From contig NZ_LT828540.1 of the NCBI RefSeq assembly GCF_900170035.1, positions 446,960 through 510,959 on the forward strand: a DNA stretch of 64,000 nucleotides, read 5' to 3'. Below the pieces are notes generated by a model. The model ran no database searches and was not told the origin of the DNA. It saw only the letters and a program-made list of their open reading frames with translations. Source of the stretch: Desulfamplus magnetovallimortis (GTDB taxonomy: Bacteria; Desulfobacterota; Desulfobacteria; Desulfobacterales; Desulfobacteraceae). The stretch's first letter is position 1; each line of letters opens with the position of its first letter. Below, in pieces: positions 10,199-42,968 of the stretch. The position numbers and the translations under genes were made by a program.

Positions 10199-11648
10199 TC
10201 ATTGAACTCTTCTGTTTGTCCTTGCAAAGGATAGAAAAGAGTGAAGATTACTGCCAAACCTGCGCCAGCTATCCGGAGATTTCCACAGCATGGAGAGATA
10301 GCCGGCCATTACTTTTGGACGTAGAAAATGCGATTTATAAAAGAATGTGAAAAGCTCATCAAGTCGTTCTTTATTCATACCTTGAGGAACAAAGGTAAAT
10401 GACATGCAGTCCATTTTTTCCCAGTTTTCTTCAAAAGAGCCGTGTAATTTGCCGGCTTTTATCTCTTTGTAAATGGGTGAACCTGGAAACGGCGTGAATT
10501 TTGCCAGATTGAAATCATCAAGAGGGAGCGAAAAAACATACTCCCTGCTCTTTTTTATGGAGCTTTCAGTCTCTCCGGGAAGCCCGATCATTAAAAGCCC
10601 TTTTACACGGATACCTGCCTTTTTGATCATATGTACTTTACAGGAGAGCATATTGAGATCTGCATTTTGTCGATGCATGGCAAGCAGGGACTCATCTCCA
10701 GTTTCGATCCCAAGACTTATCATCCAGCAACCAGCTTCCTTCATTTTGCCAAGCAATTCAGAATCAAGATGCTCTGCTCTGGCAGCGCAGTTAAAAGTCA
10801 TCTTCATCCCGCTTGCAATCATATAGTCGCAAAATTTAATGATTCTTTTACGATGAAAGGTAAACTGATCATCATAAAAATTGATATGCCTGATATTAAA
10901 ACGATCTTTTAAATATTTCACATGCTCAAACAGATACTCTGCACTGTTGAATCGAAAAGTTCTGCCAAAAACTGAACGATCACAATAGGAACAGGCATAT
11001 GGACAGCCTCTGCTTGATATACAGCTTGCATTGGGGGTGGAAGGATAGTTAAAAATGGGCAATCTGTAGATTTCAGGGTAACCTGCAAGTTTTTCATAGG
11101 CAGGGAAAGGCAGTTGATCCAGCTCAATTTGCTTTCCGGGCATTCCGGAAAAACAGGCGTTTCCATTGGAATCCCGATAAACCAGACCCTTTACCAGCGG
11201 AATATCTCTGGATTGAGCTTTGATAAGGTTTAAAAAAGTCTCTTCCCCTTCCCCGGCAACAACAAAATCCACATGATCTGAATAGTTAAGAATCTCCTGT
11301 TTCAATGCAGAGACATGTGCACCGCCAAAAACTGTTTTTATCTCAGGAAGGAGTTTTTTTTGCATATCCGGCAATAGTCAAACCGTCCAGAAATGTGGAT
11401 GTTGCACATGAGAACCCAATAAATGCAGGCTTTTCCCGCAAAAGGGCATCTTTTATGATTTTTTCAGCATCCGGACAGGCATAACAATCTATGATTTCAC
11501 AGTTAATGGAGTGTTGTGAAAGATAGGCCGCAATACTGGCAAGTCCCAAAGGAGGCGTGACACTTGCCAATCTGGAAATATCCACACTGTTTTTACGGTA
11601 TTTATATCCAAGAGGATGAACAAGTAATACTTTTTCGTTATTCAGCAA
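10199..11648 (-). CDS. Cobalamin-type radical SAM enzyme (frameshifted in A8 run)
   Basis: Two overlapping frames (11648-11343 and 11374-10199) are one BchE-like gene. An N-terminal cobalamin-binding-type Rossmann domain (TPPLGLASIAAYL ... FIGFSCATST) continues into GGAHVSAL, then a radical SAM domain with CX3CX2C at about C215, C219, C222 (RGCPYACSYC). The break is at the T8 run 11354-11361: removing one base joins the frames into 482 residues. Such enzymes use SAM and cobalamin for methyl transfer, ring formation or anaerobic hydroxylation; substrate unknown. It is the last gene of the island, beyond the ammonia-lyase and the IS110 element. Slippage on the A8 message is an alternative to a sequencing indel. 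Confidence 0.8.
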
Positions 11649-11710
11649 AAAAAGACTCCTATCTTTTTTATTTTATTTATCCACAGTCAAACAATTTCAC
11701 ATGGTATCAA

Positions 11711-11884
11711 CTCAAAATCGACATCTTATTGCTTTTTTAGAAGTTATTGCAGTTGTCTGAACCAGGATAACCAGGATGGATAGGATGCTCAGGATAGATA
11801 ATCCTGCCTTATCCTGTTAATCTTGGGAATCCTGATTCAGACAGTGTTGACAAGGCTTACAAGATCATAGGTGTCGATTTTGAG
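11711..11884. repeat. RepB copy with intact terminal inverted repeats
   Basis: A 174-bp element with ends CTCAAAATCGACA and TGTCGATTTTGAG (13-bp perfect inverted repeat) and an inner pair TCTGAACCAGGAT / ATCCTGATTCAGA. It has no coding capacity. It lies directly after the ammonia-lyase stop codon (11887). Confidence 0.85.
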
Positions 11885-11886
11885 TA

Positions 11887-13482
11887 TCAAGAGGATTTTC
11901 CATACACTGAGAGGTCATCAAAGAGTTGTGATGAGAAAAGCAATTTTCTCAACTTTGACAGATCATCATGGAAAATCCTTGATTCATCATAAACCTGAAT
12001 TTTATCCTGAAGGATGTTGTAAATTTTGCGTGTGCCAAACCCGAGTTTATCACTGTTTCTAAACGACAGTGCCTGAAAATCGGCAAAGGTTTCCAAAGTG
12101 ATGACATGTTTTGCTTTGCTGACAATTCCAAAGGCTTTTCTCGCTGCCACCGTACCCATGCTGACGATATCCTGGTTTGATGCATTGCACGAAATGGAAT
12201 TTACGCTCATGGGTGCTGTCTGATTGCGATTCTCCGCAGTGGTGGATGTGGCAAGATATTGTGCCCCCATGAATCCCATGGATAGCCCTGGTTCATTGAC
12301 AATAAGAAATTCAGGAAGCCCTTCGTTCAGCTTTTTGTCCAGTATTTTGTTCAACCTGCGCTCTGAAAGATTGCAAAGTGTAGAAAGTGCTATGCTCAAG
12401 GCATCCATTGCAAAGGCTATGCTCTGGCCATGGAAATTTCCTCCATGCAGAATCTTTCCTTTTTCAGGAACAATGATAGGATTGTCATTTGTGGAGTTGG
12501 CCTCTATTTCAAGGGTTGCAATACACTGATCAATGGTCTCCATAACCGGTGCCAGCACCTGTGGAGTACAGCGCAACGAGTAAACATCTTGAACATTGAT
12601 GTTGGTCTCAAAAACAGCGATCTCTTCATTGCTCTGTTCCCGTATCTTGTCATGTATGTCGTCCCGGAAAGTAAGATTTCCTGTGCCCCTGTAGAGGCTA
12701 CGAATGGCCTCTGTTACAGCTATCTGTCCAGGATGTGGTTTTAAAAAATGAAGATCCATATCAAATGCATCGTCTATTCCGCCAAATATCTCAATGGCAA
12801 AGGCTGCATTGACACAGGCTATATTGAGCAGCTTTTTTGCACCAAACAGGGCAAAAGCTCCAATGGCAGTCATGGCGGCTGTCCCATTGATAAGAGCAAG
12901 CCCTTCTTTGTAACTAAGAGTCAAAGGAGTCAAACCTGTCTCCATAAATGCTTTTTTTGCATCCATGAGTTTCCGGTTCAAATAGACCTTTCCCTCTCCT
13001 ATGATGGCAAGCGCCATATGGGCAAGATGAATCAAATCTCCGGATGCACCCACACTTCCACACTCAGGTATATAAGGTGCAATACCAGAGTTTATCATAT
13101 CTCGCATAAGTTCCAGAAGTTCAATCCTAACACCTGAATATCCCTTGACAAGCGTATTTAGCCTCACGGTTAAAATACTTAAGGCAATATAGGGTAATAT
13201 AGGTGCCCCAAGCCCGGCAGCATGGCTTTTGATCAAATTTTCCTGAAGAATTTTTATTTCTCTCTCATTGACAATCTTGTTGCACATGGGGCCAAATGAA
13301 GTATTTACACCATAAATAACTTTTCTGGCCTCAACTGCAACTTTTAAAAATTCCCTGGATCTTCTGCATTTCTCTAAGGAACTATCAGCAAGCTCAACCT
13401 TTTTGTCTCCAATGCCAACTGCAACAATATCTTTGAAAGTCAAATCATTTCCGGTCAAAACCACAACGGGTCTCTCATCCAT
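11887..13482 (-). CDS. Aromatic amino acid (tyrosine/histidine) ammonia-lyase
   Basis: A 531-residue member of the MIO-dependent lyases that remove ammonia from His, Tyr or Phe. The Ala-Ser-Gly that forms the MIO cofactor is in GSVGASGDLIHLAH. Also present are the catalytic-loop Tyr (VIYGVNTSFG), YSLRCTPQ and HGGNFHGQ. The selectivity pair is Ser-His (LIKSHAAG), usual in histidine lyases but, as I recall, also in Bacteroidota tyrosine lyases of flexirubin pathways, whose NQDIVSMGT segment it shares. Next to two adenylate-forming ligases and polyene ketosynthases, supply of 4-coumarate as starter is the best reading; a role in histidine breakdown is less likely because no other hut gene is near. 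An IS110 element separates it from the ligases. Confidence 0.88.
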   Translation of the reverse strand: MDERPVVVLTGNDLTFKDIVAVGIGDKKVELADSSLEKCRRSREFLKVAVEARKVIYGVNTSFGPMCNKIVNEREIKILQENLIKSHAAGLGAPILPYIALSILTVRLNTLVKGYSGVRIELLELMRDMINSGIAPYIPECGSVGASGDLIHLAHMALAIIGEGKVYLNRKLMDAKKAFMETGLTPLTLSYKEGLALINGTAAMTAIGAFALFGAKKLLNIACVNAAFAIEIFGGIDDAFDMDLHFLKPHPGQIAVTEAIRSLYRGTGNLTFRDDIHDKIREQSNEEIAVFETNINVQDVYSLRCTPQVLAPVMETIDQCIATLEIEANSTNDNPIIVPEKGKILHGGNFHGQSIAFAMDALSIALSTLCNLSERRLNKILDKKLNEGLPEFLIVNEPGLSMGFMGAQYLATSTTAENRNQTAPMSVNSISCNASNQDIVSMGTVAARKAFGIVSKAKHVITLETFADFQALSFRNSDKLGFGTRKIYNILQDKIQVYDESRIFHDDLSKLRKLLFSSQLFDDLSVYGKSS

Positions 13483-13612: not shown

Positions 13613-14842
13613 TCAATTGGCAACAGCCTCGCCAAGATAACCAAATTTAATCAAGGCTTGAAGCCAACGCGGTGCGTTCCGTTCGACTACAATGGCTTCA
13701 TAGTCGATATCCGGATCACGATACGGCTGTTTATTCTTGAGCATTGAAAAAATGACCCTAAGAATTTTGTGACCGACAGCAACGATGGTACGCTTGTGTC
13801 CCCGACGAATTACAAGCGCTTTGTATTTACCCTTGAACTGGCTGTTGGTCTTTCTTGCCGCATTGGCTACTTCGCACAAAATGCGCCGGACTGTCCCGTT
13901 CCCTTTTCGGGTACGTCCGCTTTTCTTCTTTCCGGCGCTTTCATTGTTTCCGGGACACATTCCCGCCCAGGATGATAGATTGCCGGCGCTGCCAAACTGA
14001 TCCATATCCACGCCTATCTCAATGATCAGCATGGCGGCACTGAATTTATCCACACCCGGCAATGTTTGCAAAATGCCCCACTGTTCAGCATACGGGGTCA
14101 TTGCTGCAAACAGATAGTCATCCATCTTCTGAATTTCCTTTTCCAGATACCGGATGTGGCTCTGTATATTTTGGAGCAAAAAGCGATGGGACTCGCCAAG
14201 GGTTTCATCCATTGAATCCATCAATTCATGCGCTTTAGATTTCAAACGACCACGGGCACATTCCACCAGCTCTTTGATTGGACGGCCATCAATCAAACCA
14301 TCAATCATCTCTTGCGCAGAGATACCATTGATGTCGCTGACTACCCCGCCCAGGCGAATACCGGCATCATCAAGTATTTTATGAAGCCGATTTTTTTCCG
14401 CAGCCAACATATCTTTAACCTTCATTCTTTGACGACCTATCAGACGCAGTTCGCGCAAGTCTTTGGGGGGAATGAAGCTTGGCTTCAAGAGACCGGCCCT
14501 GCCGAGGACAGCAAGCCACTCGCTGTCCATTACATCTGTTTTTCGACCCGGGACATTCTTGACATGTCTCGCGTTTACGACATAGGTCTTGATTCCGGCC
14601 TTTTCAAGAACATCGTAAACACTTTTCCAGAAAATGCCGGTACTTTCCATTATCACCAACTCAACTTCGTGATTTATGAGCCAGCGGCAAAGCTGACGGC
14701 GGTGTTTCCTGAATGTACCGAATTCCCGGGTCTCTTTTTGGAACGTACCATCTGCCTGCTCCACCAATACGGTTGCGACAATAATCATCTTATGGATGTC
14801 TAGCCCGGCACAACGTTTGACGATCGGTTCTAAATCCGACAT
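13613..14842 (-). CDS. IS110-family transposase
   Basis: A 409-residue DEDD recombinase. The N-terminal RuvC-like domain has GLDIHK (D15), the acidic motif IMESTG (about 61) and KTDVMDSEWLA (about 105). The C-terminal Transposase_20 region (about 255-350) includes LQTLPGVDKFSAAMLI and the conserved serine region LSSWAGMCPGNNESAGK. GGAGG lies eight bases before the ATG. The frame is intact, so the element may be active. It lies between the ammonia-lyase and the ligases of the island, same strand. Confidence 0.95.
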   Translation of the reverse strand: MSDLEPIVKRCAGLDIHKMIIVATVLVEQADGTFQKETREFGTFRKHRRQLCRWLINHEVELVIMESTGIFWKSVYDVLEKAGIKTYVVNARHVKNVPGRKTDVMDSEWLAVLGRAGLLKPSFIPPKDLRELRLIGRQRMKVKDMLAAEKNRLHKILDDAGIRLGGVVSDINGISAQEMIDGLIDGRPIKELVECARGRLKSKAHELMDSMDETLGESHRFLLQNIQSHIRYLEKEIQKMDDYLFAAMTPYAEQWGILQTLPGVDKFSAAMLIIEIGVDMDQFGSAGNLSSWAGMCPGNNESAGKKKSGRTRKGNGTVRRILCEVANAARKTNSQFKGKYKALVIRRGHKRTIVAVGHKILRVIFSMLKNKQPYRDPDIDYEAIVVERNAPRWLQALIKFGYLGEAVAN

Positions 14843-14849
14843 AATACAC

Positions 14850-15171: not shown

Positions 15172-16647
15172 TTAACCTCTTTTATCAAAAAAGATAGTAC
15201 GTTTTCTTTTTTTATTAAATTGATATACAATATTATCTGCTTTTTCACATGAAATAACTTGAATTTCGGGGACAACCCGTACTTTAGCACGAATTTTCTC
15301 CTCAAGCCACGACGTTCCGGATGCAGGTTCTGTCAAAGACACAAAAAGAGTGACGCGATCTGTTCCATCCTGATTTTTCAAGGCTTCCACAAAACCTGTA
15401 TGAAACCTTGCATCCCCCTCCAGGGCACTTATTATGGCATTTGGAAAAACCGTAGTGCCTTTGTATTTAAGCATCTGATTTTTTCGACCAAGTACAGGTG
15501 CAAGACGCTTTGTAGTACGTCCACAGGAACAGGGTTTATCAATGATAAAGGAGATATCATTGGTTCTAAAACGAATTAAAGGCATTCCGGTTATCCCAAG
15601 GGGAGTTGTGATCACTTCACCAGGCTCACCATCCGGCAGATTTTTTCCATTCTCATCCACAATTTCAATGACATTCATTTCCGGCCGAAGGTGACCCCCA
15701 CAGCGACTCTCACACTCACAGAAGGTTGTTGCAAGTTCTGTTGAGGCATAGGTGGAAAAAATTGGTGCATCCCACATGGATTCAAGTGCTGTTGCCATGG
15801 TAAGCAAATCAAGATTTCCGTCCCTTATGGGTTCTCCTATTGCCACAAGTTTTTTGATGCCCGATGAATCCGGATGCTCTTTGTTCTCAATGGCATATGT
15901 CCCAATGAGATGCATCAGGGAAGGCACCCCTATTATTACAGTTGGTTTTGTAAGTTTTACCAGCTCCCACAAATGGGCAGCATTTGATGACCCAGCCCTA
16001 ACGGCAGTTGTCTGAAGTTTCAGGCTTCCCATGAAATAGGCAAGGCCAGCCATGAAACAGCGATCCATTGCAGCACAGATCATAACGGTATCTGAAGCAG
16101 TGATCCCGGCTATACGGAAAGCCATCTCTTCGTTGTACGCAAGACGTGCAATATCTCCGGCAGTCTGGGGAACCATTGTGGGATGGGGACCTGTGGTGGC
16201 GGATGTAAGACATATATCCACAATCTCTTCCGGTGAAACAGTTAGAAAATCACCGGCATTTTCCAGGTGAGCCTTTTCGGTAAATGGAATCTGCGCCAGA
16301 TCCTCCATGCTGCTCAAACCCTGAAACTTTCCGTCAAGACTTTTGAAAAGAGTCAAACTATTCCGGCTTTCTTCAGCATCTTTGAAAGGAGCCAAGACTT
16401 TCCCGCTTTCTTCAGCCCCCTTGAAAGGAGTCAAGGCTTTCCAGTTTTTTTCTGCACCATTAAAAAGACGACGGTAGTAAGGGCTCTTAGAGAAGGCATA
16501 ATCTAACTGCTCGTTGAGCAACCTAAACTGAACATCCAATATCTTTTCAGAATCTGCATACTGCAAATGGGCGTACTGCCGAAGCGGAGAATCCACAATT
16601 AACCCTCTTTCATTGCTTAAAATGGTATTTTCTGGCGTTATCGTCAT
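15172..16647 (-). CDS. PaaK-like adenylate-forming ligase (aryl-CoA/ACP ligase)
   Basis: A phenylacetate-CoA-ligase-like enzyme of the ANL superfamily: phosphate-loop CLTSATTGPHP, core STYASTELATTFCE, and a PaaK-type C-terminal part with CSCGRTTKRLAPVLGRKNQM. I place the start at ATG 16647 (AGGAAA eight bases upstream), giving 491 residues; the open frame extends to 16707 without a ribosome site. Near the N-terminus, three 13-residue in-frame repeats (FKGAEESGKVLAP type; DNA 16348-16464) are inserted where PaaK has none. It lies right after another ANL ligase. One of the two probably activates 4-coumarate from the lyase; the other may activate a fatty or product acid. Confidence 0.85.
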   Translation of the reverse strand: MTITPENTILSNERGLIVDSPLRQYAHLQYADSEKILDVQFRLLNEQLDYAFSKSPYYRRLFNGAEKNWKALTPFKGAEESGKVLAPFKDAEESRNSLTLFKSLDGKFQGLSSMEDLAQIPFTEKAHLENAGDFLTVSPEEIVDICLTSATTGPHPTMVPQTAGDIARLAYNEEMAFRIAGITASDTVMICAAMDRCFMAGLAYFMGSLKLQTTAVRAGSSNAAHLWELVKLTKPTVIIGVPSLMHLIGTYAIENKEHPDSSGIKKLVAIGEPIRDGNLDLLTMATALESMWDAPIFSTYASTELATTFCECESRCGGHLRPEMNVIEIVDENGKNLPDGEPGEVITTPLGITGMPLIRFRTNDISFIIDKPCSCGRTTKRLAPVLGRKNQMLKYKGTTVFPNAIISALEGDARFHTGFVEALKNQDGTDRVTLFVSLTEPASGTSWLEEKIRAKVRVVPEIQVISCEKADNIVYQFNKKRKRTIFFDKRG

Positions 16648-16708
16648 ATAGGTTTTCCTGTATATATATACGGGCATGAATGTTGCCGAAATTAGAACCA
16701 ATATCAAC

Positions 16709-18169
16709 TCAACATCTTTGTATCTTGCCGCTCAAAGTTTTTTCAATTATATCTGTTTTGACAAACTCTTTTGGTATCTTATAAATGTCCAGTCTCTCTT
16801 TCAAAAAACGTTTCAGCGCACCCAGGTCAATCTCTTTGACATTGCCCGACACAGTATATTGAGCAACCGGAAGCTGACCGTACATCCTGTGTGTTTCTCC
16901 ATAGACCTTAACTTCCTCAATTCCTTCAAACTGAAGCATTGCCTGCTCCACCTCTTCAGGAAAAATCTTCATTCCATTGAAATTTATAAGATTTTTCTTT
17001 CGCCCGCAGATGAACAGAAAACCATCCTTTATCTCTCCTATGTCTCCGGTGTCAAACCACTCTTCTCTTCTCTGCCAGGGGGATACATATCCTTCAAACA
17101 TCCCTTTGCCTTTCAACAAAATTCTCCCTCTCCCATCTAAATCCTTATCTTCCAGTTTCATCTGATATGCAGGCAGAATCTGCCCCACAGAAGCAATATA
17201 TTCGTCATCTGTTCTATGGTTGATAAAGGGAAGTCCCACCTCAATGATGCCATATGCCTGAACAAGAGCGATATGAAATTTTTCCATAAATTCCACAGCA
17301 ACTTTTTTTTCCAGAGCCATGGCAGTTGAAATTGCCATGCGGACATTGGATAAAAGTTCTCCTGAAAAATCATTGTTACGGGTCATCAGAGTATAGTGAA
17401 AAGGAGATGCATATAAAAATGATGGTGGATGTCGTTGAAATGCCTCTGCCGCCCCTTTTGGAAAAGAGTCACCGCACAGCACAATGTGTGCTCCCCTTCG
17501 GAGAAAAAGCAGGATAGTTACCACAAAATGGTAACTCATGGACAAAAACCAGGCGATTGTATCACTTTCTGTAATCTTCAGGCGCTCATCAGCAGCATCT
17601 GTCCTCTGGATTATGGCACTATGTGTCAGCAATACCCCTTTGCTCATCCCTGTGGTTCCCGAAGAGAAGCGAATGAATGCAGGATCAATAACCTCTTCCT
17701 CTTTACAAAAGGGTTGCAACTTCTTTCCATCATTATACAAGGGTTGCAGCTTCTTTCCCGTATTATAAATGGATAGCTTTTCGGAAAGATCAACAAATTT
17801 GTGAAAAATGTCCCGACTCCTCTGACAAATCACACAGTTGACCTCCATTCTCTGACATAAAGAGTCAAATTCCCTGGATGAAAGTGATGGAGAAGCCGGA
17901 AGCATGACTGCGCCAATATCAAGCAGTGCAAGGGCTGTAATTATATATTCAATGGAGTCTTCACACAAAAGAGCTACCCTGTAATGCTCTTCAATACCAC
18001 ATTCGTTGACAAGAAAAAGAGAAAGTTCTTCCACCTTTTCAAGAAGCTCTCCATATGTGATGCTTTTTTTTTCCTGACTTACGGCATATCGGGAAAGATA
18101 AGAAGCTGTCTCCCTGCGGATGGTATCGACAATGTTTATGCGGTTCAGATCACTTATCATTAAAATCAT
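16709..18169 (-). CDS. AMP-dependent synthetase/ligase (ANL superfamily)
   Basis: A 486-residue acyl/aryl adenylating enzyme with P-loop-like FSSGTTGMSKG, adenine motif QAYGIIEVG, DTGDIGE and the C-terminal catalytic lysine motif LSGKIQR, so both domains are complete. It resembles the stand-alone ligases (ApeH type) of aryl polyene clusters that load the aryl starter. Residues about 137-156 hold two copies of a 10-residue repeat (GKKLQP core; DNA about 17708-17767), an in-frame insertion just before the P-loop. It is followed closely by the PaaK-like ligase. Confidence 0.88.
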   Translation of the reverse strand: MILMISDLNRINIVDTIRRETASYLSRYAVSQEKKSITYGELLEKVEELSLFLVNECGIEEHYRVALLCEDSIEYIITALALLDIGAVMLPASPSLSSREFDSLCQRMEVNCVICQRSRDIFHKFVDLSEKLSIYNTGKKLQPLYNDGKKLQPFCKEEEVIDPAFIRFSSGTTGMSKGVLLTHSAIIQRTDAADERLKITESDTIAWFLSMSYHFVVTILLFLRRGAHIVLCGDSFPKGAAEAFQRHPPSFLYASPFHYTLMTRNNDFSGELLSNVRMAISTAMALEKKVAVEFMEKFHIALVQAYGIIEVGLPFINHRTDDEYIASVGQILPAYQMKLEDKDLDGRGRILLKGKGMFEGYVSPWQRREEWFDTGDIGEIKDGFLFICGRKKNLINFNGMKIFPEEVEQAMLQFEGIEEVKVYGETHRMYGQLPVAQYTVSGNVKEIDLGALKRFLKERLDIYKIPKEFVKTDIIEKTLSGKIQRC

Positions 18170-18264: not shown

Positions 18265-19761
18265 TTAAGACCCATTCCTAAATGCACCATCTATCTTTTT
18301 AGACTCATGGAGCAGCTCATCGCCGCTTTTTTTCCACAACTGTTCCGGATAGTCCTTGTATATCTGATAGAGTGAAAAAATATACCTTGTTCCCATATAT
18401 ATCGAGTAAAAAAGATCTTTCAGAGGAACTTTTATTCTGTTTCTTCTAAGGGGATTTGCTCTCAAAGCAAGGGAATATAGACGTCCGAAGTGCTGATAAA
18501 ACTTTTGCAGAGGCAATCGGGTCGGAAGCAGGGAGTGCATACAGTCATAAAAACGAAAGGGTTCACAGATAAAGCGATGGCTGTTCTGCCGAAAAAGTTC
18601 TGTGCCAGGGGATGGAGAAAGCACCGTAAAGGTTATTTCAGCAGGGCTTACAAACTCCATATCTTTTTCAAGGGCTTTGAAATCATCAACAGAAAAATCG
18701 GGATTGACAATAAAGGCAGCGTGCAATGTGATGTTAATCTCTTTTAATATGGAGACAGCTTTTCTGTTGGTCTCCATGGAGGTTTTTTTATTGTATTCCG
18801 AAAGCCTTTTCTCATCCATGGATTCAAGTCCAACATACACCACATCAAGCCCCACCTCTTTCCACTCCCTGAAAAGCTCAGGATGGCTTACAATGGTATC
18901 GCTTCTTGCCCAGCTTATATATTTTTTCCGGATATTCTCTTCCTTGAGTAACCTTGCGATTGCAGATACCCGCTTTGTGTTTATAAACATCTCGTCATCC
19001 ACAAAGTAGATATATTCTTCTTTGATATTTCGGATCTCCTCCACCACATCTTCCGGACTTTTTTGAAGATACGCTCCGTTCATGGCAAAGTGAATAACAC
19101 AAAAAGAGCAGGAAAAAGGGCATCCCAGGGATGTTCGCAAACTGGCAACCCTTGGGAAAAGGGTATCAAGACGACCTGTGTCACTGTGTGTCCATATACA
19201 AAAATATTTATCCCGCTGGACAAGATCACGCCTTGGAAGTGGGATATCCCGTATATTTGCATATGGTGGAGGCGGTAGCTTACTTGCTGCTACAAAATCA
19301 TCTGATAAGGGTTCAAGTACAGATATGGAATCAGATATTTGTTTGCCCTTTTCAATTCGCTCCAGAATTCGGGACATGGCCGTGGCACCCTCCCCTCTGA
19401 CAATGAGATCAATGGAGCCTGTATTGTAGTCATAAGGGTAAATGGTTGCATGAATCCCTCCAACAACAATAAGGATATCGGGAGAAATTTCCTTTGCCCT
19501 TTCGGCAAGTTCCTTGACAATATGAGCTGTGGAGCTGTAACCGGAAAGAGCAAGCATCCCGGGGGAATATTCTCTAATGAGATCATTGAAACGCTTCAAG
19601 GGATTTTTTTCAATACTCAGATCCAATATACGGACATCGTGTTCCGGCCCTATTCCACCGGCAACAATCTCAAGTTCCAGTGGTTCTAAGTGCAGGAAAG
19701 CCTCGGAAAGGCGTTTGGCTACATTCAATTCCGCATGGGGTTTTACAAGTAATATCTTCAT
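18265..19761 (-). CDS. Cobalamin-type radical SAM enzyme
   Basis: 498 residues. Residues 1-135 form a cobalamin-binding-type Rossmann domain (HDVRILDLS, LALSGYSST, VVGGIHATIYP, IVRGEG). The radical SAM barrel follows with C214, C218 and C221 (LGCPFSCSFC) and an acidic strand motif YFVDDEMF. The classic DxHxxG cobalamin-histidine motif is absent, as in many BchE-like proteins. Reaction unknown; methylation, cyclisation or O2-independent oxidation of the polyene are possible. The frame is intact. It lies between the ligase pair and the FAD oxidoreductase. Confidence 0.88.
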   Translation of the reverse strand: MKILLVKPHAELNVAKRLSEAFLHLEPLELEIVAGGIGPEHDVRILDLSIEKNPLKRFNDLIREYSPGMLALSGYSSTAHIVKELAERAKEISPDILIVVGGIHATIYPYDYNTGSIDLIVRGEGATAMSRILERIEKGKQISDSISVLEPLSDDFVAASKLPPPPYANIRDIPLPRRDLVQRDKYFCIWTHSDTGRLDTLFPRVASLRTSLGCPFSCSFCVIHFAMNGAYLQKSPEDVVEEIRNIKEEYIYFVDDEMFINTKRVSAIARLLKEENIRKKYISWARSDTIVSHPELFREWKEVGLDVVYVGLESMDEKRLSEYNKKTSMETNRKAVSILKEINITLHAAFIVNPDFSVDDFKALEKDMEFVSPAEITFTVLSPSPGTELFRQNSHRFICEPFRFYDCMHSLLPTRLPLQKFYQHFGRLYSLALRANPLRRNRIKVPLKDLFYSIYMGTRYIFSLYQIYKDYPEQLWKKSGDELLHESKKIDGAFRNGS

Positions 19762-22581: not shown

Positions 22582-22590
22582 ATTCCAGCA

Positions 22591-22845: not shown

Positions 22846-22848
22846 ACC

Positions 22849-23097: not shown

Positions 23098-23183
23098 ACA
23101 TCTCCTGTGAACTAAAGAGTAACGGTCATAAACCTTGATGAACATGTAAAAAGTCCAATTGCGAGATTTTTTCACGATAATTA

Positions 23184-33243: not shown

Positions 33244-33244
33244 T

Positions 33245-35736: not shown

Positions 35737-36380
35737 TTTGCAGTTGTCCAGACCGAGGATTCAATAGGAAGATTTATGCGTATATCTTCAAACCTGATCA
35801 GCGTGTCATCTCCACTTATTTCGGTTATCCGAATCTGCTCCAGATATCTTTTGTCTTCCCTGAAGTCAACGACAACTGCTTCAATGATTCCGGAAGCCGG
35901 ATTTTCCGGTTTAGGCTGGAATCTCAAAGAGAGGGGTGTTTCAGAAAGGGCAACAATATCATAATCGGTTAAAAAATCCGAATATTGTCCGGAAAACCAC
36001 TTTTTTATCTGGGAAACTGCTGTATCCACCATCATGTTGTCATTTAGGGAAATGGTTGTGCTCTTTTTGCTCTCTGCATCCCATTTCACCATCTGTTTTC
36101 CGTCCATGACAAGGGAGTATTCAACAGGCTCTTCAACCTTCCAGGCAAACCTGTCCGGTTTATCCACATGAATGGTTCCCCTGATTTCAAGAGGCATCTC
36201 AAACATGGCCATCTTCTTGACCTGGACAAACCTTGCCGACAGAGTCCGCACAGAATCCATGCGCTGCTCCACATCTTTTATTTCCGACAGGAGATCCAGC
36301 CCACTGCATGGAACGCAATAAAAAAAGATCATGACGAAAACAAAGAGAAGAGAAAAACTCAAACAAAATACTCGATTCAT
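35733..36380 (-). CDS. LolA-like outer-membrane lipoprotein carrier
   Basis: 215 residues from ATG 36380: signal peptide (about 1-25), then the LolA-like open barrel (LSARFVQVKKMAMFEMPLEI; DKPDRFAWKVEEPVEYSLVMD). It probably ferries the hydrophobic product through the periplasm. The first 28 or so codons and the leader are tandemly duplicated (36298-36389 and 36390-36475). In the distal copy the start codon is changed to ATA, which argues for 36380 as the working start. The stop overlaps the exporter start. Confidence 0.88.
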   Translation of the reverse strand: MNRVFCLSFSLLFVFVMIFFYCVPCSGLDLLSEIKDVEQRMDSVRTLSARFVQVKKMAMFEMPLEIRGTIHVDKPDRFAWKVEEPVEYSLVMDGKQMVKWDAESKKSTTISLNDNMMVDTAVSQIKKWFSGQYSDFLTDYDIVALSETPLSLRFQPKPENPASGIIEAVVVDFREDKRYLEQIRITEISGDDTLIRFEDIRINLPIESSVWTTAK

Positions 36381-36475
36381 TTTAAATCCAGCCCACTGCA
36401 TGGAACGCAGTAAAAAAAGATCATGACGAAAACAAAAAGAAGAGAAAAACTTAAACAAAATACTCGATTTATTTT
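36298..36475. repeat. 92-bp tandem duplication of LolA-like 5' end
   Basis: Two copies about 94% alike with a 92-bp period, beginning AGCCCACTGCATGGAACGCA. The inner copy carries the gene start; the outer copy has ATA in place of ATG and lies in the leader. Confidence 0.88.
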
Positions 36476-38054
36476 ATACAATTTCATCCTCCCTGAACAC
36501 CTTGAAATTCCCTTCTGCAACGGGCCTGTCTCCACACAGCACAATGCCGTGCATTACTCCAAAGCCGCCCAGCTTAGCTTTTTTTGTAACCTGAATAGTC
36601 ATGGGCACTTCAGGGTATATTTTGTCAAGTATTTGTATATTCTTGCCACCAAGCAACACGCCTTGATGTGGACTTTCCCCTGTATCAAAGCCCTCGAAAC
36701 CATTCATGGCTGCTGCTGCCTGAGCCATCATTTCAAAGAGAATCACCTCTTCAAGGGTTCCGTCCTTTTTAAGAAAAATGGTATCATGGGGTATCACAGA
36801 TTCAATCTCAGCATAACGCTCTTTAACGGCAATAAGCTTTGTTATTACCTGAATGGGTCTTTTCTGTGGAATGAAGGCATCCACAGAAGCGGGAAGATGG
36901 ACTATCTGATCAATTTTATCCTGATTTTTCCAGCAAAAAGGATCTGAGCCCATATAGTCTCCTGTCAGGGCATAAGCAAGAGCTCGACTTCCGCAGCATT
37001 GATCTGCATCATCGCATCTGCGGCACGGGCCTTTTATTTTTATCTTACCGTTTTCTCCCGCAAGATTCATAAGTACTTCACTCTCCTTTAGTATAACACC
37101 AAGGGGCTTTTGCCTTATGTTGCCCAAAGATATGGGAAGTCTTTTGCGAGGATAGATATCTCCTGTATCAGTCACAGTGCAACAACGCAAATAAGAAGGT
37201 ATTTCAGGGCCTGGAATCGGTGGAAGGGGTTTCCAGTTAATTTTATACTTCACAGCATCTATTCCGGAAAGTTCCTCAAAAAGTGCTCTGACATCATCTG
37301 GTTCAGGGAGTCTGCAATGTTTTTTATCACTATCTGCACCCACAAAAAGTCCTGGAACTGGAAGAGTCATCAAAGGCACAAGTTTATTATCTCTCGCCCA
37401 TCGCCAAAAACCTGGAATACCCGTCAGATGCTCCCTGGAAATGATTGACTCAAGAAAAAGTTTTGCATTGTCATCAGGATATCCGGCAGACATGAAAATA
37501 TTTACTATATCACATATATTATAAAACCCTTTACCCACGACTGAGCAGGGTTCTCCGGAGGGTTTTCCGGAGCTGGAGGTATTATTTTCTCGATATGCAT
37601 CCTGATCTTTAAGTATCTCCTTATCCACGCAGAAGCAGTTGTCTCCGGAACCGGTTGTTTTTTTGGGGAACAGATCCTGATGCATCAGGATGACATTCAC
37701 TCCATCAGTGAAAAGCCTTTGAGCCACTTCACGGGTTATTCCCATACCGAAAGTGCAAAACCCCGCACGCAATCCATTAATACGAATATGAGCAAGAATA
37801 TCAAAAAACCAGGGATGCACAGAAAAATTTTCATCTGTAATGATAATTTCCTCCACCCCAAGGCGTGAAGCCTGATCAACAATGCCAAGGATCTCTTTAA
37901 GATCCAGTTTGTCATCTTCAGCGCAGTACAGCTTACAGTCATCAGGCAAACCGGGTTTACCAGCTTCAGCCAGAGAGCAGTCAGTGCTCTCAAAAAGCAC
38001 CCGGGGAAGCTTAACAGCAATGGTTTTCACCGTCATGTTCATATTTCCGCCCAT
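36474..38054 (-). CDS. Degenerate radical SAM/SPASM-like protein fused to hotdog dehydratase (ApeP-like)
   Basis: 526 residues. N-terminal part (1-385): DDCKLYCAED sits where radical SAM proteins have CX3CX2C, but the third Cys is Asp. EIIITDENFSVHP aligns with the GGEP strand, and a C-terminal SPASM/twitch-like segment is well kept (YLRCCTVTDTGDIYPRK ... GPCRRCDDADQCCGS ... SDPFCW). Residues about 390-526 form a hotdog domain like ApeP/FabZ (VDAFIPQKRPIQVI, LFEMMAQAAAAMNGF). I know of no family with this fusion. The N-terminal part may bind an auxiliary cluster or serve as scaffold, or may still use an Asp-ligated cluster. Small repeats (SGKPSGEP) lie near residue 165. The ATG overlaps the PlsC-like stop. 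Confidence 0.75.
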   Translation of the reverse strand: MGGNMNMTVKTIAVKLPRVLFESTDCSLAEAGKPGLPDDCKLYCAEDDKLDLKEILGIVDQASRLGVEEIIITDENFSVHPWFFDILAHIRINGLRAGFCTFGMGITREVAQRLFTDGVNVILMHQDLFPKKTTGSGDNCFCVDKEILKDQDAYRENNTSSSGKPSGEPCSVVGKGFYNICDIVNIFMSAGYPDDNAKLFLESIISREHLTGIPGFWRWARDNKLVPLMTLPVPGLFVGADSDKKHCRLPEPDDVRALFEELSGIDAVKYKINWKPLPPIPGPEIPSYLRCCTVTDTGDIYPRKRLPISLGNIRQKPLGVILKESEVLMNLAGENGKIKIKGPCRRCDDADQCCGSRALAYALTGDYMGSDPFCWKNQDKIDQIVHLPASVDAFIPQKRPIQVITKLIAVKERYAEIESVIPHDTIFLKKDGTLEEVILFEMMAQAAAAMNGFEGFDTGESPHQGVLLGGKNIQILDKIYPEVPMTIQVTKKAKLGGFGVMHGIVLCGDRPVAEGNFKVFREDEIV

Positions 38055-38830
38055 TATATGAGACTATCCTTTTCACCCATATGCAAGACTCTCCGGTTTT
38101 CATGGGCATCAATGAAATCCTGCATGATCTTTCTGACATGTTTTTTCAAGGCAAAAGGGCTTAAGTGAGCATACTCTGCAAAGTTAATAGGAGGCAGCAT
38201 GTGAACATCCACAACGCCAGGTTTGATAAGAAGAGAACCTTTCTTAGGCTTATCTTCATTTCCCATGATACAAACAGGAATCACGCTCACTTTTTCAGAC
38301 TGTGCTGCCCGAAAAATCGCACCATGGAAATGGTTGATCCTGGATGAACCGGATCTGGTTCCTTCGGGAAAACAGACCACAGACACTTTTTGTTGTACTA
38401 AATTCCTAAAAATTTTTAGGAAATCATCAAAGGGCATCTCACGAATACTGATATAACCCGCAAGCTTGGCGCAAATGCCAAGTATGGGAAGTCTGAATGG
38501 CCAAATATTGACTATCTGGACAAACTCTCCGGGCAATACCGCCATGAGAAAAGCATCCGAGGCAGCTCTGTGGTTAACCACATAAACACATGGAAAATTA
38601 ATCTCTCTGCCCCCTGTGGAATCTATAAATCTGACATGGGCTACCAGTCTGCCCAAACCGAAAACGATACACTTGCCATAAAGGACAATGAAGCTGCGTA
38701 GAGTAGAGAGAATGGTTCTTTCAGGAAAAAAACAGCGCATTAGAAGCAATATGAACAATCCGGCACAAAAAGCAATAATGGTGAACAGCGCAGATAAAAT
38801 ATAAAAAACCGTATTTTTAAAAACAACCAT
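38054..38830 (-). CDS. PlsC-type 1-acylglycerol-phosphate acyltransferase-like protein
   Basis: 258 residues with an N-terminal membrane segment, catalytic NHRAASD (HX4D) and FPEGTRS. It transfers acyl groups from ACP or CoA to a lipid acceptor. With the LpxL-type enzyme at 25539 it would build the lipid anchor of the pigment. The start overlaps the ACP stop (TGATG). Confidence 0.9.
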   Translation of the reverse strand: MVVFKNTVFYILSALFTIIAFCAGLFILLLMRCFFPERTILSTLRSFIVLYGKCIVFGLGRLVAHVRFIDSTGGREINFPCVYVVNHRAASDAFLMAVLPGEFVQIVNIWPFRLPILGICAKLAGYISIREMPFDDFLKIFRNLVQQKVSVVCFPEGTRSGSSRINHFHGAIFRAAQSEKVSVIPVCIMGNEDKPKKGSLLIKPGVVDVHMLPPINFAEYAHLSPFALKKHVRKIMQDFIDAHENRRVLHMGEKDSLI

Positions 38831-39096
38831 CAGCAGGTATGTTCCGTTTTTATCAATGCAATGAAGTCATACAGGTTCTCCAGGGTGACAATATTTTTGA
38901 CACGCTCATCATCCCGCAAAGTCACATTGAATTTATCCTGAAGAGCGACAATCAAGTCAACAACATCAAGACTGTCGAGACCAAGATCCTCAAAAATGGT
39001 GGCTTCCGGAATAAGTTCCTCCTCTTCAAGTTCAAAGGACTCCATAAAAACCTCATTCACCATTTCAATAATCTTTTCATCCATGCTCAAATTCAT
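38830..39096 (-). CDS. Acyl carrier protein
   Basis: 88 residues from ATG 39096 (CCGGAG eight bases upstream), with phosphopantetheine motif GLDSLDVVDL. A TTG at 39102 would add two residues. It is coupled to the ketosynthase upstream and the acyltransferase downstream. Confidence 0.92.
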   Translation of the reverse strand: MNLSMDEKIIEMVNEVFMESFELEEEELIPEATIFEDLGLDSLDVVDLIVALQDKFNVTLRDDERVKNIVTLENLYDFIALIKTEHTC

Positions 39097-39098
39097 TC

Positions 39099-40337
39099 TC
39101 AAATCTCCGGTTTAAACTTTGTACATACAAGAGAAGCGTTTATGCCGCCAAAGGCAAAACAGTTTTTCAAAACCACATCAACGGATCGATGCAAGGTCTC
39201 TCTTACATGAAAGACAACGTCACACCCATTGTCCACAACTTCAAGATTGCATGTGGGGTATATCATATTTTGCTTCATCATATCCATAACAACAGCAAGC
39301 TCTATGGAACCCGATGCCCCGAGTGTATGACCTATATATCCTTTCAGGCTCTGCACTGGGGTATTGGCACCAAAAACAGTTGCAATGGCTTGGGCCTCCT
39401 CCTCATCGCCATGACGTGTGGCTGTGGCATGCGCACTTACCAGATCAACCTTTGAGGGTAAAATATCAGCTTCGGACAATGCCATATTCATACAGTGAAT
39501 CATGGACTCCCTGTGGGCCTGGCTCACATGTGAGCCGCTGCTGCATGTATGATAACCTCTGATCTCAGCCAAAATATTTGCTCCTCGCTCAACAGCATGT
39601 TCATAATCTTCCAGCACAAGAATTCCTGCGCCTTCCCCGCAAACAATGCCATCCCGATCCTTATCAAAGGGTCTTGGTGACTTTTCAGGAATATCATTAT
39701 AGTTTGTGGAAGATGCAAAAAGAATATCAAAAGAGCCTGTAACAGTGGGATGAAGCTCTTCTGCTCCACCGCAAAGCACCATTGACTGCCTTCTGTTTCT
39801 GATAAGATCAAAACCTGTTCCCACAGCCTGCAATGAGGAAGCACATGCTGCGGAAGTTGCCATGACAATTCCCCTTAAGCCAAGATACTGGGCAAGATTC
39901 ATTGCTGCCGTATGGGAGACCGTATGAAAAAATTTCATGGCAGAGAGTTTTGAAAGGTCATGATCCGGCAGCATTGTCTCAAAAGTGTCGTTCAAAGCCT
40001 CGGCACCCCCCATTGTGGAACCCACTACGCATCCGCACTTGCCCTCCAGGAAATCAAGGCTCTTTATTCCTGCTGAGGAAAGTGCCTCATCTGCTGCAAA
40101 CAGGGTAAGCAGGCTCAGTCTCCCCATGGATCGTCTAATCTTTCTGGGAATATGCCTGTAATCCGGCATATCAACTGGAACTCCAATAAGGCTTCTGAGA
40201 CCTTTATATCTCTCCCAGCCTGGCATTCTTCTGGTGGCACATTTACCCTTTTCAATACCAGAGATCAGTGCATCCATACCGCAGCCCATACCTGTTATCA
40301 CACCCTTTCCCGTTATGACTACTCTGGCTGCTGTCAT
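39099..40337 (-). CDS. Beta-ketoacyl-ACP synthase (FabF-type)
   Basis: 412 residues with Cys in TSAACASSLQAV, His in SAHATATRHGD and His in YIGHTLGASG. The changed His box (HATAT rather than HGTGT) is seen in aryl polyene ketosynthases of the ApeO/ApeR type. It is the only island ketosynthase without an obvious repeat insert. The ATG overlaps the oxidoreductase stop. Confidence 0.92.
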   Translation of the reverse strand: MTAARVVITGKGVITGMGCGMDALISGIEKGKCATRRMPGWERYKGLRSLIGVPVDMPDYRHIPRKIRRSMGRLSLLTLFAADEALSSAGIKSLDFLEGKCGCVVGSTMGGAEALNDTFETMLPDHDLSKLSAMKFFHTVSHTAAMNLAQYLGLRGIVMATSAACASSLQAVGTGFDLIRNRRQSMVLCGGAEELHPTVTGSFDILFASSTNYNDIPEKSPRPFDKDRDGIVCGEGAGILVLEDYEHAVERGANILAEIRGYHTCSSGSHVSQAHRESMIHCMNMALSEADILPSKVDLVSAHATATRHGDEEEAQAIATVFGANTPVQSLKGYIGHTLGASGSIELAVVMDMMKQNMIYPTCNLEVVDNGCDVVFHVRETLHRSVDVVLKNCFAFGGINASLVCTKFKPEI

Positions 40338-41988
40338 TTGTCTCTACCTCCAAGTGAATATTCAATAAATCGGGCATACTCCTGACGATCAAGCAGCAGG
40401 CGGCATAAAACAAAAGATGACATCATGCTCCCCATTATACCGGGAAGAAGAGCGCTCTGACCTGCGCAATAGAGATTGCGGAAAGGAAGCCTGCCAAAAA
40501 GGTTAAACTGCCCCATTTTCTGTTTGATCCCATAAGCACACCCAAAAGGCGTATTGAGATAATCCCGAAAGGTTAGCATGCTGGCAGCATCCAGCAACTG
40601 CAATGAGTTTTCATATTCAGGAAATTGCCGTACTATTCTATCCTTAATTCTGGATATTTTATCTTTTTTGTAGGCATCATACCCAGAAACTCTTTTCCCC
40701 ACAGTTGAATCTGCCCATTTTTCCACATGCTCATAGTGGGACATTTCAAATGCATTGATAAGATTTACAACTTCTCCCTTAACCACTTCGTGGCTTTTTA
40801 TCATTACTAAAGGAAAATCTCCGCTCCTTGAAGTATCAAAAACCTCCCTGATGTCATCCTGGGGCAACAGTGTTATCAAGGCAGGAGAAAATGGTTGAGA
40901 TGCCATATTACTAATGTGAAATGCATCCTCATTATCTTTATGATTGGAGCTGATCGTTGAAGTTGACCATGAAGGGTTACCGTGGAAAGAGATTTGATTT
41001 TCACATATGGGGGGGGCTTCAGCCGGAAATGAAGGTTTAACCTTGAAAAAAACAGAAAAAAACCAATGGAACGCTCAAAAGATTCAACCCTCTTTTGAAA
41101 GGCTCTTGTCAGATGCTCTGAAGGTAAAATTTTCAGAACCTCTTTGGGATGAATGGTGAAAATGCACTCCTTTGCCTGCAAAGGTTTTCCGTCATTGAGA
41201 ATAAAGATGCCAACAGTGCGGTTTTCAATCTCCTCCATGCTCTTAATAGAGGAATTTGTTCTGACTGTAACTCCAAATTTATCAAGTTGCTTTTTAAAGG
41301 CACGAATAAATGCATCGCCCCCGTTCTTTACCCTTGCAATGGATTGATAAAGCCCGTAAACTACCCGGCTGTGGTTGGCAAAGGAGATGGCAGAAGGTTC
41401 TGACCCGTAACACATGGAAAGAGATGCCAATATAGATTTTAAACGGATATCATCGGTCAATGAATCAAGTACATCCGCAAGAGTTACAAAATCATCTTTG
41501 GATTGTAAAGGACGCTCAGTCAATATACTCCTGATATCCATTGCCCCTGTCTCCTGTACCAATTTTCTGATACGGGAAAAATAAGAGGTTACAGCATCTG
41601 CCTCATCAGGAAAGTCAGATATCATGGCATTGGCCACTGTCAGCCATCCAAAGGGAAGTTTATGACAATCTCCTGTGGATTCAAAGATGAATTGATTATC
41701 CTCGGCACTCTTCACAAATTCCGGAAAAATATCTTTGTCCATGGACAAGATTTTCAACATATCCGTAAGGATAGCTTCTTCTGAAAAGCCGCCGGTAAAA
41801 TGAAATCCAGTGTCAAGTGGTACACCCTGTCTGTAAAATCGACGCAGGGAGCCCCCAATGGCAGGGCCTTTTTCCAGAAGAATCACTTTACGCCCGTTCA
41901 TGGCAAGGAGCAAAGCCATGGTTAGCCCACTGACACCACCTCCCACCACAATATTGTCATAACACTCATTTTTTCCCATATTTTTCAT
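40334..41988 (-). CDS. Phytoene-desaturase-like FAD oxidoreductase (frameshifted; carries an in-frame RepA peptide)
   Basis: Two frames (41988-40876 and 40906-40334) join with one extra T in a T7 run (41046-41052 or 41056-41062), giving 551 residues. The N-terminal FAD motif is IVVGGGVSGLTMALLLAM ... LLEKGPAIGGSLR, and the C-terminal motif NLYCAGQSALLPGIMGSM fits CrtI/retinol-saturase-like enzymes, which could desaturate or isomerise the chain. At 40977-41040 a full-length RepA element lies inside the gene. In the joined frame it is read as about 21 residues (containing FPAEAPPICENQISFHGNPS) without a stop. Confidence 0.8.
40977..41040. repeat. RepA copy inside a coding sequence
   Basis: TTACCGTGGAAAGAGATTTG through the G-run to AATGAAGGTTTAA aligns end to end with the intergenic RepA consensus (TTACCGTGGAAATGGATACA ... 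ACCGTTTA). It is diverged at about a third of positions but keeps an open frame in the host gene. Confidence 0.75.
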
Positions 41989-42019
41989 TTATTTATGAAT
42001 CAATCCCATGCCTATGATC

Positions 42020-42216
42020 GGCATCTGCCGATTTACACTTTCCGGTAAAACCTGTACATTTTTTGGCAATTTATAGTTTTCCAGAATAGTTAAATTGGCA
42101 ATACTACTGTAGGACTGCCCTGTGTGGCTGCCCTTTCCAAAGTTGAGATGCCAAAATTTTTTTCTGAAAGTCTATAAATCCAGAAAGTGTAAAGTACTAC
42201 CGGGGATGATATGAAG
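42020..42216. repeat. RepD-related copy with internal insertion
   Basis: Left end GGCATCTGCCGATTTACACTTTCC is intact apart from a few bases. The right end CAGAAAGTGTAAAGTAC ... GATATGAAGA is about 95 bp further away than in the 106-bp copies. Lies in the leader between fabG-like and oxidoreductase genes. Confidence 0.6.
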
Positions 42217-42239
42217 AGTGTACAATGATTCAATCAAAA

Positions 42240-42968
42240 TCATGTTCTCAATCCACCATTTACGCTGATCACCTGACCGTGGATATACATATTTTTCTCA
42301 CTTGCAAGGAAATCAACAACAGAGGCAACGTCTTCAGGTGTTCCGATTCGTCCCATGGGAATCAGCGGCAAAACCTTATCCATGGGAAATTTATCTGTCA
42401 TGTCAGTTTCAATAACCCCTGGAGAAACAACATTCACAATAATTCCCTTTTTACCAACTTCCCGGGCAAGGGCTTTTGCTGCGCCAATAAGACCTGCTTT
42501 GGAGGCAGAGTAGTTGACTTGTCCTGCCTGACCCTGTTCTCCGGAAACTGAGGAAACAACTATAATTCGTCCCTTTTTTGCCCTCAACATATTGAAAACC
42601 ATAGGCTTGACAACATTGTAAAATCCATCCAGATTTGTCCTCAATACATCGTTCCATTGATCTTTTTTCATCCACAACAGTAGATTGTCACGGGTAATAC
42701 CTGCATTGTGTAGCAATACATCCGGAGCAGTTTTGCCAAACTGTTCTTTTAATACTTTCTCACACTCATCGGTATCAGCAACATCAAAGGAGAGCAGATC
42801 GCATCGTTTTCCCAACTTTGTGATCTCTTCTTTTACCTCAAGAGCCTGCTCTTCGCTGCTTTTATAGGAAAGAACAATGTCAAACCCTGATCTGGCCAAT
42901 CTGAGGGCACATGCCTTTCCGATCCCCCGACTTCCACCAATAACCAGGGCGCAACCTTTGTGTTCCAT
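42240..42968 (-). CDS. 3-oxoacyl-ACP reductase (FabG/ApeQ-like SDR)
   Basis: 242 residues: short-chain dehydrogenase with NADPH motif VIGGSRGIGKA, structural NAG (LLHNAGITRDN) and catalytic Ser...YSASK. It reduces the keto group after each condensation. AAGGAGGAAC is a strong ribosome site. It appears to be the first gene of the island, so the island promoter should lie just upstream. Confidence 0.93.
   Translation of the reverse strand: MEHKGCALVIGGSRGIGKACALRLARSGFDIVLSYKSSEEQALEVKEEITKLGKRCDLLSFDVADTDECEKVLKEQFGKTAPDVLLHNAGITRDNLLLWMKKDQWNDVLRTNLDGFYNVVKPMVFNMLRAKKGRIIVVSSVSGEQGQAGQVNYSASKAGLIGAAKALAREVGKKGIIVNVVSPGVIETDMTDKFPMDKVLPLIPMGRIGTPEDVASVVDFLASEKNMYIHGQVISVNGGLRT

Follow-up and report, generated by a model that had tools for sequence, protein, structure and literature searches.

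We analysed a window of 64,000 nt from Desulfamplus magnetovallimortis (assembly GCF_900170035.1, contig NZ_LT828540.1, positions 446,960-510,959 of the forward strand) and found an island at window positions 10199-42968, with all genes listed on the minus strand, that is probably one cluster for a predicted outer-membrane lipid of the aryl-polyene type in an anaerobe. This reading draws on gene content, gene order, conservation, homology and the retention of catalytic residues, from which the substrate, the product, its export and the reaction of each radical S-adenosylmethionine (SAM) protein are predicted. Protein families of the island's open reading frames (ORFs) were assigned by Pfam and NCBIfam scans. 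Judged by sequence, the island core looks like an aryl-polyene-type type II polyketide synthase, to which an ammonia-lyase would supply cinnamate or 4-coumarate from phenylalanine or tyrosine and a FlxY-like ligase would activate the acid. An ApeR-like ketosynthase and ketosynthase/chain-length-factor pairs would extend the chain on three acyl carrier proteins (ACPs), with FabG as the predicted reduction step and a split dehydratase of the ApeI:ApeP type leaving conjugated double bonds, which would remain because the island has no recognised enoyl reductase. Attachment to a lipid may fall to the acyltransferases of the PlsC, LpxL and condensation types, while MMPL, LolA and DUF3261 proteins would bring this lipid to the outer membrane and four B12-type radical SAM proteins together with two flavoenzymes would tailor the chain or head group without O2.

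Ketosynthase and dehydratase signature of the core

The ketosynthase at 39099-40337 had as its best PDB matches 7f27_A (E 2.4e-100), which we take to be ApeR of A. baumannii, and 4ewg_A; its Cys-His-His triad is intact and was kept in 26/26 rows of the family alignment. Two chain-length-factor-like parts were found, one of them the ApeC-like protein at 23184-23819 (PF13723), whose top PDB match was 7f28_A, presumably ApeC (E 5.5e-6), the runners-up having E values of at least 0.4. The other is the C-terminal part of a ketosynthase fusion at 29596-31341, recognised by Pfam ketosynthase domains, in which Cys, His and His were retained wherever aligned (67/67, 68/68 and 67/67 rows); this fusion type appears as two ORFs in L192, L194 and L195. 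The entry 4ewg is named ApeR in PMC8358021. A third ketosynthase, at 23738-25060, occupies the ApeO position with an intact triad (69/69, 68/68 and 68/68 rows) and scored 266.8 bits with NCBIfam PRK09185 (cut-off 407). The ACPs lie at 38830-39102, 25091-25378 and 22849-23175 (PF00550, E 3.8e-10, 2e-6 and 7.3e-9, respectively), and a FabG/FlxB-like 3-oxoacyl-ACP reductase (42240-42968; FabG model PRK05653.1-5, 295.8 bits, cut-off 273) is the first gene of the cluster.

Two hotdog proteins of the dehydratase type are encoded, and their conserved residues complement each other. The ApeI-like half at 31980-32501 carries a catalytic His, His79, in 54/54 distinct rows, and its family profile ranked 6qsr_A second of 24 PDB matches (E 1.9e-10), after an uncharacterised protein and slightly ahead of FabZ chains. 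The ApeP-like half forms the C-terminus of a fusion protein at 36474-38054, whose radical-SAM/SPASM part matched PqqE (6c8v_A, E 7.4e-21) and whose family profile matched 6qsr_B in its C-terminal part (E 1.8e-14). Glu441 and Gln445 of this half were present in 40/40 distinct rows, two further rows being gapped at that place, and no conserved His was found in the 16 columns preceding Glu441 in the alignment after removal of duplicates. A His on one hotdog protein and a Glu without a nearby His on the other is the pattern expected of a split active site of the ApeI:ApeP type; we take 6qsr to be the X. doucetiae ApeI:ApeP complex and read its active site as split. The CxxxCxxC motif of the SPASM domain is gone in the window copy and in L048/L076, L051/L084, L078, L127 and L143, and was seen within the first 140 residues in 28 of 42 distinct orthologue ORFs, some of the remaining 14 being truncated ORFs or a stand-alone hotdog protein. 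Because the hotdog Glu is kept despite this loss, the dehydratase half of the fusion seems to be the indispensable one.

The core is accompanied by a 4HBT thioesterase (31504-31983; PF13279, E 1.8e-17) and by three acyltransferase types, namely PlsC-type (38054-38830; PF01553, E 3.2e-15), LpxL/HtrB-type (25539-26453; PF03279, E 4.2e-15) and condensation-type. The last, at 21104-22581 in two overlapping ORFs, had no Pfam match and was assigned to the condensation/acyltransferase superfamily by fold: the model of an orthologue (L079, predicted local distance difference test score, pLDDT, 80) matched condensation domains with a best E value of 2.5e-22, and the H and D of its HxxxD motif are invariant in the family. 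Export functions are represented by an MMPL/RND lipid exporter (33245-35736, in overlapping ORFs at 34141-35736 and 33245-34177, PF03176 on both), a LolA-like carrier (35733-36458; PF03548, E 2.6e-21) and a DUF3261 protein (32485-33285; PF11659, E 3.4e-7). The two flavoenzymes are a CrtI/phytoene-desaturase-like protein (40334-41988, in overlapping ORFs at 40876-41988 and 40334-40906), with a Pfam Amino_oxidase match in the longer ORF and CrtD-like matches in both, and an oxidoreductase dependent on flavin adenine dinucleotide (FAD; 19792-21027; PF12831, E 4.3e-40). An acyl-CoA/ACP ligase (16709-18169; PF00501, E 2.3e-54) stands beside the FlxY-like one. Thus every enzyme type inventoried in the initial annotation was recovered in the island, and the aryl-polyene/flexirubin character proposed there is borne out by FlxY-, FlxB-, ApeR-, ApeC-, ApeI- and ApeP-like proteins. 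Its further proposal, that an anaerobe makes a tailored aryl polyene, is sustained as far as an aryl-polyene-type cluster with linked radical SAM genes is concerned; methylation, cyclisation and hydroxylation of the product are not established.

Conservation of gene order and the starter module

Conservation was followed through two adjacent radical SAM genes. The protein at 26796-28145 is a clear member of TIGR04072 ('rSAM_ladder_B12', lipid-biosynthesis B12/radical SAM protein; 638.6 bits, curated cut-off 360), and the B12-domain-type protein at 28317-29606 is the most conserved enzyme of the island. Among 98 genomes, the window's own and relatives, 26 had a TIGR04072 gene over the family cut-off, 19 of these above 530 bits; loci drawn from this genome set are numbered L039-L075. 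A named search with the TIGR04072-type protein gave the best 80 loci of 245 relatives (L076-L155). Locus labels are those of the records, unchecked and nearly all from metagenome-assembled genomes; the two sets share some contigs, and counts called distinct are free of duplicates. The synteny maps give the best window protein for each stretch, so that paralogues may bear a neighbour's name.

The named loci carry labels of Desulfobacterota, Nitrospirota, Omnitrophota, Planctomycetota, Hydrogenedentota, Elusimicrobia and Verrucomicrobiota groups, among others, the nearest relatives having those of sulfate-reducer families. A 28317-type gene lies directly upstream of the TIGR04072-type gene in 66 of the 80 named loci. 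Such a gene is present in 67 of the named loci, 65 of which encode a protein 60-68% identical to that of the window; the remaining two are at 43% and 85%. Of the 19 genomes whose TIGR04072 gene exceeds 530 bits, 18 also carry the 28317 type. In the 40 loci of at least 20 kb, ApeI-like (37), LpxL-type (37), MMPL (35), DUF3261 (34), SPASM-hotdog (33) and ApeC-like (33) genes were nearly constant; condensation-type (29), FAD oxidoreductase (24), FlxY (20), HpnR-related (17) and HpnJ-related (9) genes were less so. Five loci extended upstream, with Omnitrophota, Deltaproteobacteria, Geobacteraceae, Hydrogenedentota and Nitrospirae labels, all had FabG, CrtI-like, ApeR-like and PlsC-type genes in window order, a small ACP gene being present in three of the five ORF lists. 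Moreover, a 39099-like ketosynthase (best match 42-67% identity) is encoded in each of 35 genomes that bear the cluster and were chosen among the named loci. Across the 98 genomes the gene set occurs in two arrangements, one that resembles the window (G012, G014, G022, G038 and G061, in some cases on a short contig) and a rearranged one (G016, G018, G029, G035, G039, G045, G092 and others); a more distant group (G066, G072, G074 and G083) has fewer genes in common. This order in distant records agrees with the single unified cluster put forward initially. Loss of the radical SAM genes from the side of the ketosynthases in relatives, named initially as an outcome that would refute such a cluster, was not what we observed: the 28317 and 26796 types are linked to them almost throughout, though the HpnR- and HpnJ-related genes are the less constant ones. 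That the order persists between groups at the level of phyla implies an important lipid.

The starter module behaves differently from the core. The predicted aromatic amino acid ammonia-lyase (11887-13482; PF00221, E 1.1e-161), for which we propose tyrosine or phenylalanine as substrate, matched tyrosine aminomutase entries best (330 bits), one entry of equal score being labelled histidine ammonia-lyase, followed by 7tqr ('probable histidine ammonia-lyase', 308.9 bits) and AdmH (307.2 bits). It falls slightly under two HutH cut-offs (504.4 against 524 and 491.9 against 539.15 bits), and histidine may be an alternative substrate. A second, 36% identical paralogue is encoded elsewhere in the same genome. 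In Chitinophaga flexirubin synthesis, FlxA is described as a tyrosine ammonia-lyase and FlxY as a 4-coumarate-CoA ligase (PMC3992019). In the window, the FlxY-like adenylate-forming ligase (15172-16707) and the lyase are separated by an IS110-family transposase (13613-14842; PF01548 and PF02371) that is not a pathway member; in 8/8 other genomes with both fetched at high identity, lyase and ligase matches are 30-109 nt apart. Close lyase orthologues were found in 14 of the 98 genomes, own included, at 71-76% identity plus one 80% fragment at a contig end. Thirteen of these 14 genomes fall within the 19 with a TIGR04072 gene above 530 bits (Fisher P 6.6e-11, kinship not corrected for); G025 has the close lyase without such a gene, and 6/19 have such a gene without the close lyase. 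Lyase and FlxY-like ligase together would define a variant by its starter, one that could be fed with labelled tyrosine or phenylalanine.

More distant lyase-like genes were also noted near the radical SAM pair. One, 57% identical, shares a stretch with the pair in L151 (Desulfobacteraceae label), and others, 34-36% identical, do so in L146, L147 and L123 (Kiritimatiellae, Verrucomicrobia and Elusimicrobia labels); in L123 the 34% gene is 9.6 kb away from a weak FlxY match.

Several observations weigh against an aryl-polyene pathway of this design. None of the NCBIfam flexirubin equivalog cut-offs is reached (FlxA 456.4 of 700 bits; FlxY, NF053551, 395.4 of 520; FlxB, FlxB_rubin_SDR, 297.6 of 340). 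The profile of the 23738 ketosynthase matches 6qsp_A and 7f28_B, yet many FabF chains outscore ApeO. The 28317-type gene is also present in 13 of the 98 genomes that lack a TIGR04072 gene above 530 bits, four island genes are overlapping ORF pairs (10199/11343, 21104/22219, 33245/34141 and 40334/40876), and in 33 of the 35 cluster-bearing genomes a search at E 1e-30 gave no lyase. The exceptions are L151 and L079 (= G012), the latter from the same family as the window. The lyase therefore looks like a lineage-specific addition, and an aryl starter is not established for the core cluster. The lyase counts lend themselves to a reading in which the core uses another starter and makes a non-aryl polyene or some other unusual lipid, whose change to an aromatic product would have come with the gain of the lyase in a single Desulfobacteraceae-like lineage; the presence of FlxY in just 23 of the 80 named loci points the same way, as does its presence in half of those of at least 20 kb. 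FlxY-like ligases, whose characterised member uses 4-coumarate, nevertheless persist in many core clusters without a lyase, and the 39099-like ketosynthase is present in all 35 genomes; this reading is unlikely, though the strongest of the alternatives.

Split genes, repeats and flanks of the window copy

The four split genes, the IS110 element between ligase and lyase and a 43-residue repeat insertion in the 23738 ketosynthase (residues 61-103), seen in the window copy alone, could mark a decaying or dead copy of the cluster. In distinct relatives the corresponding genes are mostly single ORFs (10199-type 14/17, 21104-type 23/23, MMPL 48/49 and CrtI-like 13/13), L064, one of the three HpnJ-type exceptions, lying at the end of its fetched stretch. 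The 10199-11648 pair overlaps at an 8-A run, and not all four splits are at A-runs. The same assembly has a split rpoD (58745-61055): one ORF covers sigma-70 regions 1.1-3, and a second one, which overlaps it near a 7-A run, encodes region 4. Among the other open frames of the genome that contain a sigma-70 region 4, the longest measures 378 residues. The rpoD gene is the sole direct control for the island splits; the sampled stretches yield no genome-wide frameshift rate. Since rpoD is split too, indel sequence error, or slippage at A-runs, is the likelier origin of the splits, rather than decay into pseudogenes. The other island genes examined are open and keep their active-site residues where checked, so that a dead copy appears quite improbable.

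The genome is rich in minisatellites: the window has 37.5 arrays per 100 kb, a further ten own-genome stretches of 20 kb (L196-L205) have 24.0, and ten stretches from family members (five or more relatives) have 2.6. In the own-genome samples, all 27 arrays inside ORFs of at least 120 residues have a period divisible by three, so that genes bear repeat insertions that keep the frame, as in the 23738 ketosynthase. Three sites in the window, 3072-3233, 22590-22787 and 57919-58245, hold tandem repeats of 78-79 bp whose units (CTTTCATATAAA...) resemble each other. The flanking genes are not related to the island: EcsC, MIP and CitMHS lie at one end, and the other end borders on genes for an enoyl-CoA hydratase and an ATP-grasp acyl-CoA ligase.

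Radical SAM proteins, the ladderane label and known systems

The density of radical SAM genes in the island is above the genome average, with five PF04055 matches in 32.8 kb, two of them under the Pfam cut-off, against 0.37 expected from 75 matches in 6.68 Mb, the island's five counted in (Poisson P 4e-5). Four of the proteins (10199, 18265, 26796 and 28317) have a B12-binding-type domain, and CxxxCxxC was present in every orthologue ORF longer than 350 residues of the four families (81/81, 100/100, 15/15 and 24/24 rows, of which 77, 93, 14 and 21, in the same order, are distinct). Apart from the TIGR04072 member, their assignments are loose. The HpnR-related protein (18265-19761) stays far under the HpnR equivalog cut-off (TIGR04367, 253.3 against 650 bits), and the longer of the two ORFs of the HpnJ/BchE-related protein (10199-11648) scored 163.2 bits with TIGR03471 (cut-off 577.6), an unsplit relative in L192 reaching 178.8. 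Both the B12-binding and the radical SAM matches of 28317 are marginally below the Pfam cut-offs, and no NCBIfam model fits it well. Its predicted structure (pLDDT 82.6) was nearest to AprD4 (6fd2_B; VIA-align Z 29.2, root-mean-square deviation 3.0, 371 residues), followed in Foldseek/VIA by MgmA (Z 24.1) and then OxsB, TsrM and MiaB (about 22). AprD4 is a radical diol dehydratase said to need no cobalamin; methylation by 28317 is therefore not to be assumed, and fold alone shows no function. No clear oxygenase was recognised among the scanned island ORFs. B12-type radical enzymes may substitute for O2-dependent polyene tailoring. The surroundings of 28317-type genes were also viewed in genomes that lack a close TIGR04072 gene (L185-L190 and L073). 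In L185 (9214-12567) and L073 (6000-9734) the gene ends a small group that runs from FabG through LolA (in L185) or a 205-residue ORF to a protein of about 240 residues with no Pfam match, a setting that yielded no hint of function.

The cluster kind is known from another context. Rattray et al. described similar clusters of type II fatty acid synthesis as ladderane candidates in Kuenenia and Desulfotalea and reported a similar one in Geobacter (PMC2649909). A ladderane-like lipid or precursor, with radical SAM enzymes closing rings on an acyl-ACP polyene, would suit the TIGR04072 membership. It would also suit a locus of the HZS-positive, presumed Kuenenia genome G133 (4.4 Mb); this locus shares with the island FlxY-like, SPASM, TIGR04072 (440 bits), FabG, ACP and MMPL-like genes and so matches that description. 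We used the HZS family, found in 12 of 24 Brocadiales-side genomes, as a proxy for ladderane production. A close TIGR04072 orthologue was present in five of the 12 (G133, the query, and four at 61-65% identity); the other seven had just 30-34% identical paralogues at E 1e-60 or better and no close orthologue; these include G116, G118 and G135, each with a main contig that spans nearly the entire genome. Conversely, TIGR04072 genes occur in HZS-negative genomes (G113 and G121, about 431 bits and possibly incomplete, and G098-G100, above 580 bits). This patchiness argues against a general ladderane role of that gene and leaves other candidates unaffected. In addition, no ladderanes were detected in Desulfotalea psychrophila according to the same report (PMC2649909), and a different candidate cluster, kuste3603-3608, gave none in E. 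coli (PMC4790861). A ladderane product, already ranked behind an aryl polyene in the initial annotation, is thus very unlikely.

Doubtful to a similar or slightly greater degree is the bolder idea that the radical SAM pair of the 28317 and TIGR04072 types forms carbon rings on a conjugated polyene that is bound to ACP, that many non-anammox bacteria consequently make polycyclic ladderane-like aryl lipids, and that the Kuenenia locus is a derived member, not the origin, of an aryl-polyene family. Least plausible is the reading that Rattray et al. put forward for Desulfotalea, an anaerobic route to hydrocarbons or polyunsaturated fatty acids: D. psychrophila has C31:8 and C31:9 hydrocarbons, a syntenic cluster and, per the authors, no other known pathway to polyunsaturated fatty acids (PMC2649909), but an aryl polyene is a better match for the conserved dehydratase pair of the ApeI:ApeP type, the exporters and the genes for an aromatic starter, and long-chain hydrocarbons are tied to a polyunsaturated fatty acid synthase in some marine bacteria (PMC6463001).

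An aryl-polyene-type lipid is the preferred reading, and the cluster kind had already come into view in 2009 as a ladderane candidate. New are the aryl-polyene-type dehydratase/ketosynthase signature, the breadth of the cluster, the apparently lineage-specific FlxA/FlxY-like starter module and the weakened ladderane label, which together give grounds for re-reading 'ladderane' annotations outside anammox as aryl-polyene-type clusters. In the titles and abstract openings of open-licence literature, among the matches listed, no such cluster described as an aryl-polyene pathway was found.

Set against known systems, the island shares with the Rattray clusters and TIGR04072 loci (the ladderane calls of antiSMASH, as in PMC9902471) the TIGR04072 protein, a FlxY-like 'phenylacetyl-CoA ligase', and phytoene-dehydrogenase-like, radical-SAM/SPASM and MMPL-like membrane proteins. 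The presumed Kuenenia locus differs from the island in that its SPASM protein retains the motif but lacks a hotdog domain, and in that its radical SAM protein at 5213-6556 is HpnJ/BchE-like and not a clear 28317 orthologue. Superfamily and domain order connect the island radical SAM proteins with HpnR, HpnJ, BchE and AprD4; the HpnR relative and the longer ORF of the HpnJ relative score far under the equivalog cut-offs. With the flexirubin cluster (flxA-Y of Chitinophaga) the island has in common the starter pair of lyase and FlxY-like ligase, a FlxB-like reductase, several ketosynthases, LolA and an exporter; in contrast to it, the island stays under the NCBIfam cut-offs, shows no recognisable DarA/DarB (the dialkylresorcinol half) within the island, to which this search was confined rather than genome-wide, and adds radical SAM enzymes. 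For the E. coli aryl polyene system, acyltransferases, a thioesterase and RND/Lol-type export are described (PMC8253772). The Ape clusters of E. coli, Xenorhabdus and Acinetobacter share with the island ApeR-, ApeC-, ApeI- and ApeP-like proteins, FabG, ACPs, a thioesterase, two acyltransferases and RND/LolA-type export. Compared with them the island, which has no class I methyltransferase in its scanned ORFs, adds four B12-type radical SAM proteins, CrtI-like and FAD oxidoreductases, a second ketosynthase/chain-length-factor set, a condensation-type acyltransferase and the radical-SAM/SPASM-ApeP fusion.

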